Of a stretch of DNA of 64,000 nt, positions 5,889 to 62,560 are shown piece after piece. Source of the DNA: Magnetospirillum sp. XM-1 (lineage in GTDB: Bacteria; Pseudomonadota; Alphaproteobacteria; Rhodospirillales; Magnetospirillaceae); assembly GCF_001511835.1 (NCBI RefSeq), contig NZ_LN997848.1:496001-560000 (forward strand), written 5' to 3'. The notes beneath the pieces are model-generated. The model searched no databases and had not been told where the DNA came from. It worked only from the letters and a program-made list of their open reading frames with translations. Numbering within the stretch: the first letter of the stretch is position 1; the number at the start of each line of letters is the position of its first letter. The translations under genes were made by a program, and so were the position numbers.

Positions 5889-5990
5889 TCCCTCAATCGC
5901 CGGGCGCCCCGCCTGCGGCAGGGCTTGGCTTTCGCGCCATAAGGCGCGCGCGCTCAACGCGCCAACTCCGGGCGGCCAGAGCCGCCCGTC
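5889..5990 (-). repeat. Dispersed multi-hairpin element, copy 1
   Basis: Plus-strand reading: CCTCAATCGCCGGGCG, a variable stem, CTTGGCT, then GCGCC-ATAA-GGCGC, a GCGCG stem, and GGGCGG-CCAGAG-CCGCCC. It fills the gap between the yejF stop (5993) and the DMT permease start (5883). The same layout recurs at 19082, 22201 (tandem, opposite strand), 35031, 50169, 54509, 57265 and 62505. Read on the coding strand it lies directly after yejF. Confidence 0.75.
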
Positions 5991-5992
5991 GC

Positions 5993-7594
5993 TCATGCCA
6001 CCTCCAGATCGAAGGCCGCCGCCATCAGGGCGCGGGTATAGGCGGTCTGGGGTGCCTTGAACAGGTCCACGGCCCGGCCGGCTTCCACCACCTTGCCGTC
6101 CTTCATGACGATCAGGTCGTCGGCGAGCGCGCGCACCACCCGCAGGTCGTGGCTGATGAACAGATAGGCCAGGGAATGCCGGGCCTGGAGATCGCGCAAA
6201 AGGTCGACGATCTGGGCCTGGACCGAGACGTCCAGCGCGCTGGTGGGCTCGTCCAGGACGATGAATTTGGGTTTCAGGACCAGGGCGCGGGCGATGGCGA
6301 TGCGCTGGCGCTGGCCGCCGGAGAATTCGTGGGGGTAGCGGTCCCGGGTGGCGGGGTCGAGGCCCACCTCATCGAGCGCGGCCGCGATCAGGCGGTCGCG
6401 CTCGGATTTCGGCATGGCGGGCTCGTGCACCTCGAGACCCTCGCCGACGATGTCGCCCACCGACATGCGGGGCGACAGCGAGCCGTAGGGGTCCTGGAAC
6501 ACCATCTGCATCTGGCGGCGCAGCGGGCGCAACTCGCCGGCGCTCATGGAATCGATCCGGGTGCCGGCGAAGGCGATATCGCCGTCCGAGTCCAGCAGGC
6601 GCAGCAAAGCGAGGCCCAGCGTGGTCTTGCCCGACCCCGATTCCCCCACCACGCCGATGGTGTGGCCGCGCTTCAACTCCAGGCTGATGCCGTCCACCGC
6701 CTTGACGTGGCCGACGGTCTTGCGCCAGATTCCGGCCTTCAAGGGAAACCACACCTTGAGGTCGCGGGCCGCCATCACCACCGGCTCGCCGTCGCCCGCC
6801 CGGTGGGGCTTGCCCTTGGGCTCGGCGGCCAGCAGGCGTTGGGTGTAGGGGTGTTGGGGGGCGTCGAACACCTGGGGCAGGGGGCCGGCCTCGACGATCT
6901 CGCCCCCGTTCATGACCGAGACCCGGTCGGCCATCTTACGCACGATGCCGAGATCGTGGGTGATGAACAGCAGCGCCATGCCAAGCCGGGCCTGCAGATC
7001 CTTCAACAGCGCCAGGATCTGGGCCTGGATGGTGACGTCGAGCGCCGTGGTCGGCTCGTCGGCGATGAGGATGTCGGGCTCGCCGGCCAGCGCCATGGCG
7101 ATCATCACCCTTTGCCGCTGGCCGCCCGACAACTCGTGGGGCAGGGCGGACAGGCGCTTTTCCGCATCGGGAATGCCCACCAGGGTCAGCAGTTCCACCA
7201 CCCGGGTCCGCAAGGCGTCGACCTTGAGGCCGAGATGCAGCTCCAGCACCTCGCCCACCTGCCGTTCGATGGAGTGCAACGGGTTGAGCGAGGTCATGGG
7301 CTCCTGGAATACCATGGCGATGCGGCCGCCGCGCACCTTGCGCAATGCCGGCTCCGGCGCGCCCACCAGCTCGGTCCCGTCCAGGCGGATGGAGCCCTTA
7401 GGGTGCGAGGCGCGGGGATAGGGCAGCAATTGCAGGATGGACAGCGCCGTCACCGACTTGCCCGAGCCGCTTTCGCCCACCAGGGCCAAAGTCTCGCCCT
7501 TGGCAAGGGTGAAGGACACGCCCTTGACCGCCTGATTGGCGCCGAAATTGACCGCCAGATCGTCAACGACGAGGAGAGGGGCGTTTTCACTCAT
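5993..7594 (-). CDS. yejF: Peptide ABC transporter, dual ATP-binding protein (YejF-like)
   Basis: A 533-aa fusion of two ABC ATPase domains that drives a peptide importer from the cytoplasmic face. Both halves are complete: Walker A GESGSGKS near residue 40 and GESGSGKT near 315, signatures LSGGQRQR and FSGGQRQR, Walker B ILIADEPT and FIVLDEPT. An oligopeptide-type C-terminal extension follows each. The start shares one base with the yejE stop. The fused arrangement is the YejF form rather than separate DppD/DppF. Confidence 0.92.
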   Translation of the reverse strand: MSENAPLLVVDDLAVNFGANQAVKGVSFTLAKGETLALVGESGSGKSVTALSILQLLPYPRASHPKGSIRLDGTELVGAPEPALRKVRGGRIAMVFQEPMTSLNPLHSIERQVGEVLELHLGLKVDALRTRVVELLTLVGIPDAEKRLSALPHELSGGQRQRVMIAMALAGEPDILIADEPTTALDVTIQAQILALLKDLQARLGMALLFITHDLGIVRKMADRVSVMNGGEIVEAGPLPQVFDAPQHPYTQRLLAAEPKGKPHRAGDGEPVVMAARDLKVWFPLKAGIWRKTVGHVKAVDGISLELKRGHTIGVVGESGSGKTTLGLALLRLLDSDGDIAFAGTRIDSMSAGELRPLRRQMQMVFQDPYGSLSPRMSVGDIVGEGLEVHEPAMPKSERDRLIAAALDEVGLDPATRDRYPHEFSGGQRQRIAIARALVLKPKFIVLDEPTSALDVSVQAQIVDLLRDLQARHSLAYLFISHDLRVVRALADDLIVMKDGKVVEAGRAVDLFKAPQTAYTRALMAAAFDLEVA

Positions 7595-8622
7595 CAGGTC
7601 GTCTTCCTTGGATCAAAGGCGTCGCGCACCGCTTCGCCGACGAAGACCAGCAGCGACAGCAGGCAAGCGACCACCACGAAGCCGGTCAGGCCCAGCCAGG
7701 GGGCCTGCAGGTTCTCCTTGCCCTGGCGCAGCAAATCGCCCAGCGAGGCCGAGCCGGGCGGCAGGCCCAGGCCCAGGAAATCGAGCGCGGTCAGCGACAC
7801 GATGGAGGAATTCAGGATGAACGGCATGAAGGTCACGGTGGCCACCATGGCGTTGGGCAAGACGTGGCGGACCATGATGCGGGCATCGCTCATGCCCAGC
7901 GTCCTGGCGGCGCGCACATAGTCGAAGTTGCGCGCGCGCAGGAACTCGGCGCGGACCACCCCCACCAGATTGGTCCACGAGAACAGCACCAGGACCAGCA
8001 GCAGGGTCCAGAAGCCCGGCTTGATGATCGAGGCGATGATGATCAGGATCAGCAGTTCCGGCAGCCCGCCCCAGATCTCCAGGAAGCGCTGGAAGGCCAG
8101 ATCCACCTTGCCGCCGAAATAGCCCTGCACCGCGCCCGCCGCCACGCCGATCACCGTGGACACCAGGGTCAGCGCCAGCCCGAAGCAGATGGACAGGCGA
8201 AGCCCATAGATCAGCCGGGCCAGCACGTCGCGCCCCTGGTCGTCGGTGCCCAGCCAGTTCCTGGGCGACGGCGGCGAGGGATGCTTGACCAGCGGATCAT
8301 AGTTGATGGCGCGGTAATCATAGGGAACCGGCGGCCACAGGGCCCAGCCCTTCTCGGCGATCTTGGCCACGATGTAGGCGTCGCGGTAATCGGCATAGGT
8401 CTTGAAGTCGCCGCCGAAGGTCACCTCGGGGTAGTCCTTGACCATGGGGAAATACAGCGCGCCGTCATAGCGCACCATGATCGGCCGGTCGTTGGCCACC
8501 AGTTCGGCGCCGAGCGTCACCAGGAACAGGGCCAGGAAGATCCACAGGCTCCAGAATCCCCGCCGGTTGCGGCAAAAGGCGTCGAGGCGGCGGCGGTCCA
8601 GCGGCGTCAGGCGCAGGCTCAT
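7594..8622 (-). CDS. yejE: Peptide ABC transporter permease (YejE-like)
   Basis: A 342-aa inner-membrane permease of the DppC/OppC class. An N-terminal helix (about residues 25-45) is followed by a long periplasmic region and the C-terminal BPD_transp_1 domain with the EAA-type loop containing RAARTLGMSDARIMVRHVLP. The ATG at 8622 (MSLRLTPLDRRRL) gives the usual YejE length and overlaps the yejB stop by 4 nt; the open frame upstream of it is overlap with yejB. Confidence 0.92.
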   Translation of the reverse strand: MSLRLTPLDRRRLDAFCRNRRGFWSLWIFLALFLVTLGAELVANDRPIMVRYDGALYFPMVKDYPEVTFGGDFKTYADYRDAYIVAKIAEKGWALWPPVPYDYRAINYDPLVKHPSPPSPRNWLGTDDQGRDVLARLIYGLRLSICFGLALTLVSTVIGVAAGAVQGYFGGKVDLAFQRFLEIWGGLPELLILIIIASIIKPGFWTLLLVLVLFSWTNLVGVVRAEFLRARNFDYVRAARTLGMSDARIMVRHVLPNAMVATVTFMPFILNSSIVSLTALDFLGLGLPPGSASLGDLLRQGKENLQAPWLGLTGFVVVACLLSLLVFVGEAVRDAFDPRKTT

Positions 8623-61688: not shown

Positions 61689-61754
61689 GACCGAGCGCCG
61701 TTCGCCGTCTATCCTGTCCAAGGCGTTCCGGTCATCCAAGAAAGTCACCCTCGC

Positions 61755-62444
61755 ATGCATCAGCGTCCCATCGCCGGCCTTCCCTTGGTTTCGCTGGAAG
61801 CCGTCCACCTCAACTTGGCGAGCCTGGCGGGCGAGGTCAATGTTCTCGATGGCATCGACCTGGAGGTGGTCGCCGGCGAGACGGTGGGCGTGGTCGGACC
61901 GTCGGGCTCGGGCAAGTCCACCCTGCTGATGATCATGGCCGGGCTGGAACGCCCCACCTCGGGCCGGGTGAGCGTGGGCGGCACCGATTTCTCGGGCCTG
62001 GACGAGGACGGGCTGGCGCGCTTTCGCCGCGACCGCATCGGCATCGTCTTTCAGAGCTTTCACCTGATTCCCACCATGACGGCGCTGGAGAACGTGGCGG
62101 TGCCACTCGAACTGGCCGGCCATGCCGATCCCTTCGGGGCGGCCCAGGAGGAGCTGGGCCGGGTCGGGCTGGGCAAGCGCCTGTCCCATTATCCCGGCCA
62201 GCTGTCGGGCGGCGAGCAGCAGCGTGTCGCCCTGGCCCGCGCCTTCGTGATGCGCCCCACCCTGCTGCTGGCCGACGAGCCCACCGGCAACCTGGACGGG
62301 GCCACGGGGCGCGCCGTGATGGATTTGCTGTTCGACCTGAACGCCCGCTTCGGCACCGCCTTGGTGCTGGTCACCCACGACGACCATCTGGCGGCGCGGT
62401 GCGGAAGGGTGGTGCGGGTCGAGGACGGGAAGATCCGGTCATGA
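61755..62444 (+). CDS. ybbA: ABC exporter ATP-binding protein (YbbA-like)
   Basis: A 229-aa MacB/LolD-class ATPase: Walker A GPSGSGKSTLLMIMAGLERP, signature LSGGEQQRVALARAF, Walker B LLLADEPTGNLD and the switch His in LVTHDDHLA. Divergent from tesA and followed by a YbbP-like permease, the conserved tesA-ybbA-ybbP arrangement. Start at 61755 overlaps the possible long leader of the esterase gene. Confidence 0.92.
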   Translation: MHQRPIAGLPLVSLEAVHLNLASLAGEVNVLDGIDLEVVAGETVGVVGPSGSGKSTLLMIMAGLERPTSGRVSVGGTDFSGLDEDGLARFRRDRIGIVFQSFHLIPTMTALENVAVPLELAGHADPFGAAQEELGRVGLGKRLSHYPGQLSGGEQQRVALARAFVMRPTLLLADEPTGNLDGATGRAVMDLLFDLNARFGTALVLVTHDDHLAARCGRVVRVEDGKIRS

Positions 62445-62504
62445 GCGAGGCAAAGCCGAGCGCGGGCGCGTTGAGCGCCCCGGAGCGACGACGGAGCGCA
62501 GCGG

Positions 62505-62560
62505 AGGAGGGAAGCGGAGGAGCCAAGCGTGCGGAGGCACGCACCCGGCGTTTGAGGGGC
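62505..62560 (+). repeat. Partial dispersed multi-hairpin element, copy 8
   Basis: GGAGCCAAG, stem CGTGC-GGAG-GCACG, then CACCCGGCGTTTGAGGGG, the reverse-complement form of the element end. Upstream (62456-62500) a GGGCGC-GTTGA-GCGCCC stem and purine-rich repeats replace the ATAA stem. It lies between the ATPase and permease genes of one operon, and its final GAGGGG is placed as the ribosome site of the permease. Confidence 0.6.

Follow-up and report, generated by a model that had tools for sequence, protein, structure and literature searches.

Putative mobile hairpin elements at gene junctions in Magnetospirillum and other Rhodospirillales, with a subtype tied to ATGA stop/start overlaps

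Why should one chain of hairpins, altered in sequence from copy to copy and still paired, recur behind gene stops along a single stretch of bacterial DNA? The stretch (the window) comprises 64,000 nucleotides of Magnetospirillum sp. XM-1 (contig NZ_LN997848.1, positions 496,001 to 560,000). An earlier inspection of its letters (the sequence-only reading) listed the element at eight places and proposed that it be followed with a covariance model and a statistical test of covariation, with lost pairing as a sign against it. We analyzed the element in the XM-1 genome and in the genomes of relatives, designated G001 and so on. The copies probably represent a non-autonomous mobile hairpin family of ~80–150 bases in Rhodospirillales, whose insertion would duplicate or bring T-N-A or ATGA and through which the downstream gene would gain a Shine-Dalgarno sequence. 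In kind, the element is similar to miniature inverted-repeat transposable elements (MITEs) and repetitive extragenic palindromic (REP) sequences; what is new is a subtype that is linked to ATGA overlaps and has a ribosome-binding-like end.

The 17-base motif of the element matched the window 12 times at up to three mismatches, compared with a mean of 1.52 in shuffled sequences (0 of 100 shuffles reached 12). It is present at all eight listed places; one of the 12 matches, at 26505, is no copy of the element. A covariance model, R1, was built from seven window copies and marked every one of the eight places with 34–95 bits. Seven of these are its own training copies; the independent match is the 62505 copy (33.7 bits), which was absent from R1 training and was among those used to build a second model, for the subtype termed class C. 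In the XM-1 genome, R1 produced at least 92 matches at E values up to 0.1 (28 bits or more), with scoring of 150 out of 7023 candidates; no fewer than 66 copies reached 40 bits. Repeats were also found in relatives; all copy numbers, in XM-1 and in relatives and for both the R1 and class C searches, are lower bounds. The gene context table covers 82 of the 92 matches, and orientation was counted for the 66 copies of 40 bits or more. Two R1 matches were rejected: 3295364 is false and lies inside a gene, and 2357357 is poor, with no genes called around it. The window holds 7 of the 64 genome-wide sites of at least 40 bits (5887–57345), compared with 0.8 expected (Poisson, 2e-5), although this is an unfair test because the window was chosen for them.

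In named genomes, 80 of at least 120 stretches with the exact 17-mer were tested, and the structure was present at 58 of the 80 loci, all in records named as Rhodospirillales, other Alphaproteobacteria or plain Proteobacteria. Among the 80, no structure match was found at the Streptomyces, Pseudomonas and other distant loci, nor at some Rhodospirillales loci. An alignment of named records and an analysis of ends and flanks included 66 of the 73 named-locus matches. No Rfam family matched the window at the gathering threshold, and 201 bases around one copy gave two chance matches, neither to HEARO. We found no published description of the repeat for Magnetospirillum, Rhodospirillales or Azospirillum in the open-licence literature.

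The copies are mobile insertions, and many are polymorphic between close relatives. Across 1.2 Mb of G011, ~93% identical to XM-1 in the compared stretches, both flanks were located for 28 XM-1 copies. Fifteen were absent from G011 (515081, 531029, 550508, 553265, 558508, 578800, 590160, 642802, 1423454, 1672866, 3214159, 3300798, 3302247, 3425644 and 3478870), and three had other sequence in the gap (501887, 3276090 and 4120044). Five were shared (546168, 4118180 and three copies of type E, a weaker relative), one was the false match in a gene (3295364), and four were left without a call (three tandem copies and 2734250). Window copies 1, 2, 6, 7 and 8, numbered along the window, are also missing in relatives other than G011. 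Related but different subtypes occupy the same junctions in G008 (window position 54508), G012 (19081) and G010 (57265).

Class C sits at ATGA stop/start overlaps, which are a usual site of translational coupling; what makes or breaks such overlaps in evolution is poorly understood. In the sense direction (the strand ending ...CGCCCGGCGATTGAGGG), the layout is RTGA-GCGAGGC...GCGCGTTGAGCGCC...CGGAGG(A)AAGCCAAG-stem 1-CGCCCGGCGNTTGAGGG-spacer-ATGA, where RTGA stands for ATGA or GTGA. GAGGG resembles a Shine-Dalgarno sequence and may pair as one. The class C model, built from seven class C copies, matched all 11 genus genomes searched, with at least 3 to at least 75 copies in each. For context, 66 of the 70 loci searched (91 matches) contributed one copy each; loci were chosen best matches first, and the copy used from an array is not always an outer one. 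L387 and L396 (one G001 array), L402 (the same copy as L380) and L395 (54.8 bits) were left out, and the near-identical L403 and L429 were both counted. Genes were called by our own codon-usage script, which favors ATG and ribosome-binding motifs. In the 66 loci, from 11 genomes, 63 copies lie in sense between co-directional genes, two are antisense and one is mixed. The 3' end carries RTGA in 57 loci, the 5' end in 49 and both ends in 43; 53 called downstream starts coincide exactly with the 3' end, and 36 upstream stops coincide exactly with the 5' end. The GAGG end lies 10 bases before the 3' RTGA in 43 of the 57, and 8 or 11 bases before it in 12 more. By comparison, 17 of 214 element-free G011 gene pairs with gaps of 60–250 bases have RTGA on both sides (Fisher p = 2.5e-20), as do 3 of 55 XM-1 loci used as a second control; 4-base overlaps account for 110 of 655 co-directional pairs in G011. 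In some tandem arrays (G001, G008, G009 and G014), neighboring class C matches have exactly 4 bases in common, a shared ATGA.

In XM-1, 45 copies are followed, past their GAGGG end, by a gene start. GAGG lies within 20 bases of the start in 17 of them; 14 of these starts and 10 of the stops are RTGA, both in 10 copies. Where GAGG is 5–12 bases before the start (12 of 45), all 12 copies have ATGA starts and TGA stops, compared with 39 of 214 G011 pairs.

Six XM-1 sites with RTGA (4250290, 292475, 501887, 558508, 1672866 and 3478870) were compared with relatives, and every readable insert-free relative has one RTGA, which can be read as overlapping stop and start codons. At 4250290, all nine relatives have one ATGA with collinear flanks, where XM-1 has ATGA-element-ATGA. 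Nine genomes were compared at 292475: G005 and G010 have ATGA, G011 has another insert, and six were left without a call. Of 11 relatives aligned at 501887 (copy 1), four lack the insert, three with ATGA and one with GTGA, and the other seven have different sequence. At 558508 (copy 8), seven of eight relatives lack the insert (six GTGA and one ATGA), and the eighth has another repeat. At 1672866 and 3478870, compared in G011 only, the empty sites are ATGA and GTGA, respectively.

Full-length copies have outer arms that end in TACCA and TGGTA. The arm stems differ between genera, yet within a copy the ends match each other. Ends were recognizable in 29 of the 160 copies examined, and in 13 they matched (at least 8 of 12 bases). 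An identical T-N-A triplet stands outside both ends in nine of the 13, compared with a mean of 2.6 in permutations that keep the T-N-A demand of the search pattern (0 of 2000 reached nine). Because TAA and TGA are forms of T-N-A, insertion of a copy at a stop codon still leaves one in place. Both kinds of flank, T-N-A and ATGA, are consistent with the placement at stops.

The element had been described as always following a gene stop in the same orientation, and in the window this is so: the GGGCC side, on the 5' flank in the sense direction, faces a stop at all eight sites, although the stop-side gene at 50169 is a weak call that lacks a Pfam family. Pfam families were found for 15 of 16 neighboring proteins and support the called strands. 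As a genome-wide rule the description failed, and only a bias remains. Among the 66 copies, 50 have a stop on the sense 5' side and 30 on the opposite side, and 62 have at least one (START/STOP 32, STOP/STOP 18, STOP/START 12 and START/START 4); these side counts rule out a fixed orientation. The bias is seen in the co-directional contexts (32 versus 12; binomial p = 0.004). A gene end lies 33–35 bases from the core for the 5'-side gene in nine copies and for the 3'-side gene in 10, a distance that corresponds to the end of the outer arm in armed copies.

We propose that insertion would duplicate (or bring) T-N-A or ATGA. The upstream gene would keep its stop codon, and the downstream gene would keep its ATG and acquire GAGGG as a new Shine-Dalgarno sequence; the two genes, until then translationally coupled, could come to be initiated independently. 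Copies may be found at junctions because insertion there is harmless. The stems would remain paired either because folded DNA is recognized by a mobilizing enzyme or because palindromes correct themselves.

Several observations weigh against this proposal. No mobilizing gene was found in the searches described below. At any single site, a copy missing from G011 only might have been lost in that genome. The class C model includes ATGA among its columns, which biases the 66 loci to ATGA-flanked copies; eight XM-1 class C copies from an ATGA-free model, picked by eye, have RTGA on the 3' side in 8/8 and on the 5' side in 7/8. Stop and start are both exact in 28 of the 66 loci, and a recount that gave no bonus to ATG or ribosome-binding motifs left 41 exact starts and 23 loci exact on both sides. 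Other tandem class C arrays overlap by 0, 8 or 20 bases, and the class C alignment has no terminal inverted repeat. Overlaps in relatives were judged by inspection, without gene calls. At 558508 and 3478870, relatives have GTGA where the 3' side in XM-1 is ATGA, which plain duplication does not predict; the element may instead supply the 3' ATGA itself. For the full-length form, the search pattern itself asks for T-N-A, the flanking triplets of window copy 4 are unequal (TGA and TTA), several type A junctions have no clean duplication, and the repeat at 19081 is ~13 bases long rather than 3 or 4.

More tentatively, and with the odds somewhat against it, the element could be a mobile "operon spacer": its machinery would pick ATGA overlaps and supply a structured leader together with a Shine-Dalgarno sequence and perhaps a start codon, and each jump would uncouple a gene pair, in many operons of one order. 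The junctions provide a natural repeated experiment, in which many operons occur with and without a hairpin unit, ending in a ribosome-binding-like sequence, between the same two genes in closely related genomes. They also pose the question of which enzyme moves an element whose stems may vary provided that they pair.

The stems bear on whether the hairpins act in RNA. In gene sense, the 3' part of the core is common to the family (AGCCAAG, stem 1, CGCCCGGCGATTGAGGG), and the 5' parts vary by subtype. A model-fitted alignment of 82 distinct copies had standard pairs in 96.4% of pair cells, 17 of 20 pairs changed on both sides, and 226 double-changed cells compared with 61.5 after shuffling; one-sided cells numbered ~10. 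A structure-blind MAFFT alignment of 44 copies gave 97.0%, 13 of 20 pairs changed on both sides and 146 double-changed cells compared with 45.8. Pairing was 94.6% in the model-fitted alignment of named records (71 distinct rows) and 96.1% in that of class C. Thus, stems 1 and 2 covary as the sequence-only reading described, double changes are well above shuffles in both alignments, as expected of a selected cis-acting RNA. Stem 3 had been called fixed, but across the genome each of its five pairs has changed on both sides, and a further stem 0, unlisted before, also covaries (GCC/GGC to GGC/GCC).

The paired changes had been taken as evidence for selection on the structure of RNA or hairpin DNA. 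The conserved pairing is confirmed, but covariation as an argument for RNA is not supported. A hairpin selected as RNA is read from one strand, on which G.U should be tolerated and A.C should not; G.T and A.C cells numbered 13:8, 22:13 and 3:7 in alignments A3, A5 and A4, none of which is significant. In the sense alignment of class C (A7) the ratio was 88:7, but 82 of the 88 G.T cells fall in one weak predicted helix, without which it is 6:5; this helix, if real, would speak for RNA. RNA is therefore not favored over DNA because, except for that helix, the wobbles have no clear strand bias. With that helix left aside, a DNA hairpin or the self-correction of palindromes explains the double changes, the few one-sided steps and the lack of strand bias no less well than selection on RNA does.

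A functional intercistronic RNA, with hairpins kept by selection on mRNA (for stability, processing or attenuation), is unlikely in our judgment. It would account for the strong pair covariation, the almost uniform sense orientation of class C, the sense-strand G.U of the weak A7 helix and the type E relatives, which are in place in both XM-1 and G011 at all three comparable sites. In addition, six of eight copies folded better than shuffles (z of -1.7 to -6.4); the remaining two, both class C, did not clearly do so (0.01 and -1.22). It does not sit well with presence and absence between close relatives, the occurrence of type A in both orientations, or the wobble counts in A3, A4 and A5.

The ATGA at the 3' end raises a second alternative. 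HEARO and OMEGA RNA elements of IS605-type transposons sit beside ATGA/GTGA, and a single-strand insertion of this type 3' of RTGA, with a right end that brings its own ATGA and no duplication, would explain why 56 of 57 class C 3' RTGA sequences are ATGA when 29 of 108 G011 RTGA overlaps start with GTG. The GTGA of relatives at 558508 and 3478870 points the same way. We nevertheless consider this rather improbable, given the matching 3-base repeats of the full-length form, the lack of any Rfam match in the window at the gathering threshold and the absence of a Y1 transposase match from XM-1 and seven copy-rich genomes (G001, G005, G008, G009, G011, G012 and G021). The element is structured and mobile, as HEARO is, but it is much shorter, no nuclease gene was seen between its ends, and it has no Rfam match in the window.

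The same absence of Y1 matches speaks against a REP-associated tyrosine transposase (RAYT) as the mobilizer, and a classical REP/REPIN family moved by RAYT is a poor candidate overall. IS200/IS605-type transposition is not known to make target repeats such as T-N-A, and the unpaired end of the element is CCCTC/GAGGG; no GTAG or CGTC end tag was found on the ends read by eye. In favor of such a family, copy-rich G010, G014, G015 and G026 have one Y1 match each, and the size, palindromes and gene-end placement of the element are like those of published REPs. One study places REPs mainly downstream of genes, in co-directional and convergent gaps, with GTAG ends that often provide the stop codon, and describes the CGTC super-family of Alphaproteobacteria as having no known transposase (PMC3733652). 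The element resembles REP/BIME and REPIN sequences of the GTAG and CGTC super-families (BIME, bacterial interspersed mosaic element) in being palindromic, in its placement at gene ends and, for CGTC REPs, in having no known transposase; it differs in being a multi-hairpin unit of 80–150 bases with T-N-A or ATGA flanks.

Other mobilizers were set aside. RVT_1 has one match in XM-1 but none in copy-rich G005, G008, G012 and G014, which speaks against a reverse transcriptase and, with it, a reading similar to short interspersed elements (constant 3' end, variable 5' part and A-rich tail). Group IIC introns and similar elements insert after terminators; the gene-end insertion and preferred orientation are shared, but our element is far shorter and the same four genomes lack RVT_1. 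With regard to intrinsic terminators, class C lies between co-directional genes and ends in GAGGG. No parent transposon was found in XM-1 with one arm pattern: 23 arm matches (two or fewer mismatches) gave pairs 85–160 bases apart, none bounding a longer element, and none was seen over 300 bases at two solo arm matches. At 2284992 (L371), an isolated half arm (TGATACCAACCTGCGCTGA) lies just ahead of a start codon whose reading resembles an integrase N terminus (MAEMSPLRRRMIEDMSVRNLSPATQ), perhaps an insertion into an old copy.

MITEs are among the nearest known counterparts. Like them (for example Chunjie), the element is short and non-coding, has many dispersed copies at polymorphic sites, with empty sites found in relatives, and in its full-length form, where the ends match, combines a terminal inverted repeat with a target repeat (T-N-A in 9/13 copies); at 4250290, ATGA stands on both sides of the element and once in the relatives. 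By the title cited in a review (PMC10969869), Chunjie inserted in an operon without disturbing it. The element differs in that its terminal repeats change between genera while the ends of one copy match, and matching ends were found in 13 of the 160 copies and in none of the class C alignment; class C has a Shine-Dalgarno-like end and sits at ATGA.

Insertion anywhere without target choice, with only junction copies surviving and ATGA and T-N-A as by-products of selection, is very improbable: other sequences and repeats do fill the same junctions (for example in G011, G008 and G015), but selection alone needs no identical triplet on both sides, as in 9/13 copies, and RTGA at both ends (43/66 versus 17/214) also argues against it.

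Copy 1 (5884..5992, core 5887–5968, minus strand) is a whole insert between two ATGA sequences. The upstream ABC transporter gene (5993–7594, minus) ends in ATGA, and the downstream EamA gene (4993–5883, minus) starts with ATGA. At the equivalent junction in G011 (locus L267), a different sequence, TGTCATTCCGAGC..GAGGAATCTC, fills the stop/start site. Copy 2 (19081..19184, minus) consists of the core and a private 3' hairpin, between the stop of an SLT gene (19184–20986, minus) and an HPr-kinase-like gene (18577–19008, minus). It is missing in G005, G010, G011 and G009 (where the gap has other sequence) and present in G014, and G012 has another subtype. The 3' end of the upstream gene is repeated beyond the copy (19058..19071, partner 19181–19191), and this ~13-base repeat is clearer in G014. 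At the same site in G012 (L264), a 24-base repeat of the element's own CCCTC end (TTTTATTGTCCCTCAGTCGCCGGG) lies on the flanks, like a 1.3-copy tandem.

Copy 3 (22202..22467, plus), listed at 22201 as a tandem, is indeed one, with three full 82-base copies and a partial fourth. It follows the stop of a DUF1848 gene (21266–22195, plus) upstream of aconitase B (22831–25416, plus), and G005 has one copy at this site. Copy 4 (34995..35140, minus) is full-length with both outer arms (TACTAAG...TTGGTA), lies between the stop of a GNAT gene and the start of murJ, and is missing in G011. Copy 6 (54508..54605, minus) lies between the stop of a DUF4198 gene and the start of cbiM; it is missing in G005, G009, G010, G011 and G014. 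Copy 7 (57265..57369, minus), between convergent SSF and EamA genes, has a private 3' hairpin within which the called EamA stop (57353) falls. It is missing in G009, G011 and G014. Copy 8 (62445..62568, plus), between an ABC-transporter gene (61755–62444) and an FtsX-like gene (62569–63999), has GAGGGGCAAT near its end. It had been taken for a partial copy but is better described as a member of the class C (ATGA-junction) subtype than as a fragment.

Copy 5 (50168..50273, minus) has a private 3' hairpin (CCAATATGGG/CCCATATTGG), and the copy is also present in G011. Another palindromic dispersed repeat ('CCACAGATGAACACAGATTCCC...', 49869–50002), with dozens of matches in relatives, directly adjoins it and also adjoins the XM-1 copy at 578800. 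Head-to-head CGTC...CCA palindromes lie beside copy 5 at ~50041–50165, a CGTC-type REP dimer by the description in PMC3733652. All three (copy 5, the dimer and the CCACAGATGAACACAGATTCCC repeat) are missing at that junction in G005, G009 and G014.

At 1280505, 578800 and 4471738 in XM-1 (L160, L176 and L156), a second small element (like CACGCGAAGGCGTGC...GCCGGCG.AGCCGG) is seemingly nested in the stems, as judged by eye. The type E relatives (CCCTCGCCGGGCG..GGCCGCCGCCTCAATGGCGGCTG) at 1451542, 1560552 and 3348571 (L197, L193 and L199) are kept at the same places in G011; they are oriented the opposite way, 11–50 bases upstream of a gene start, and are possibly a fixed 5' leader.

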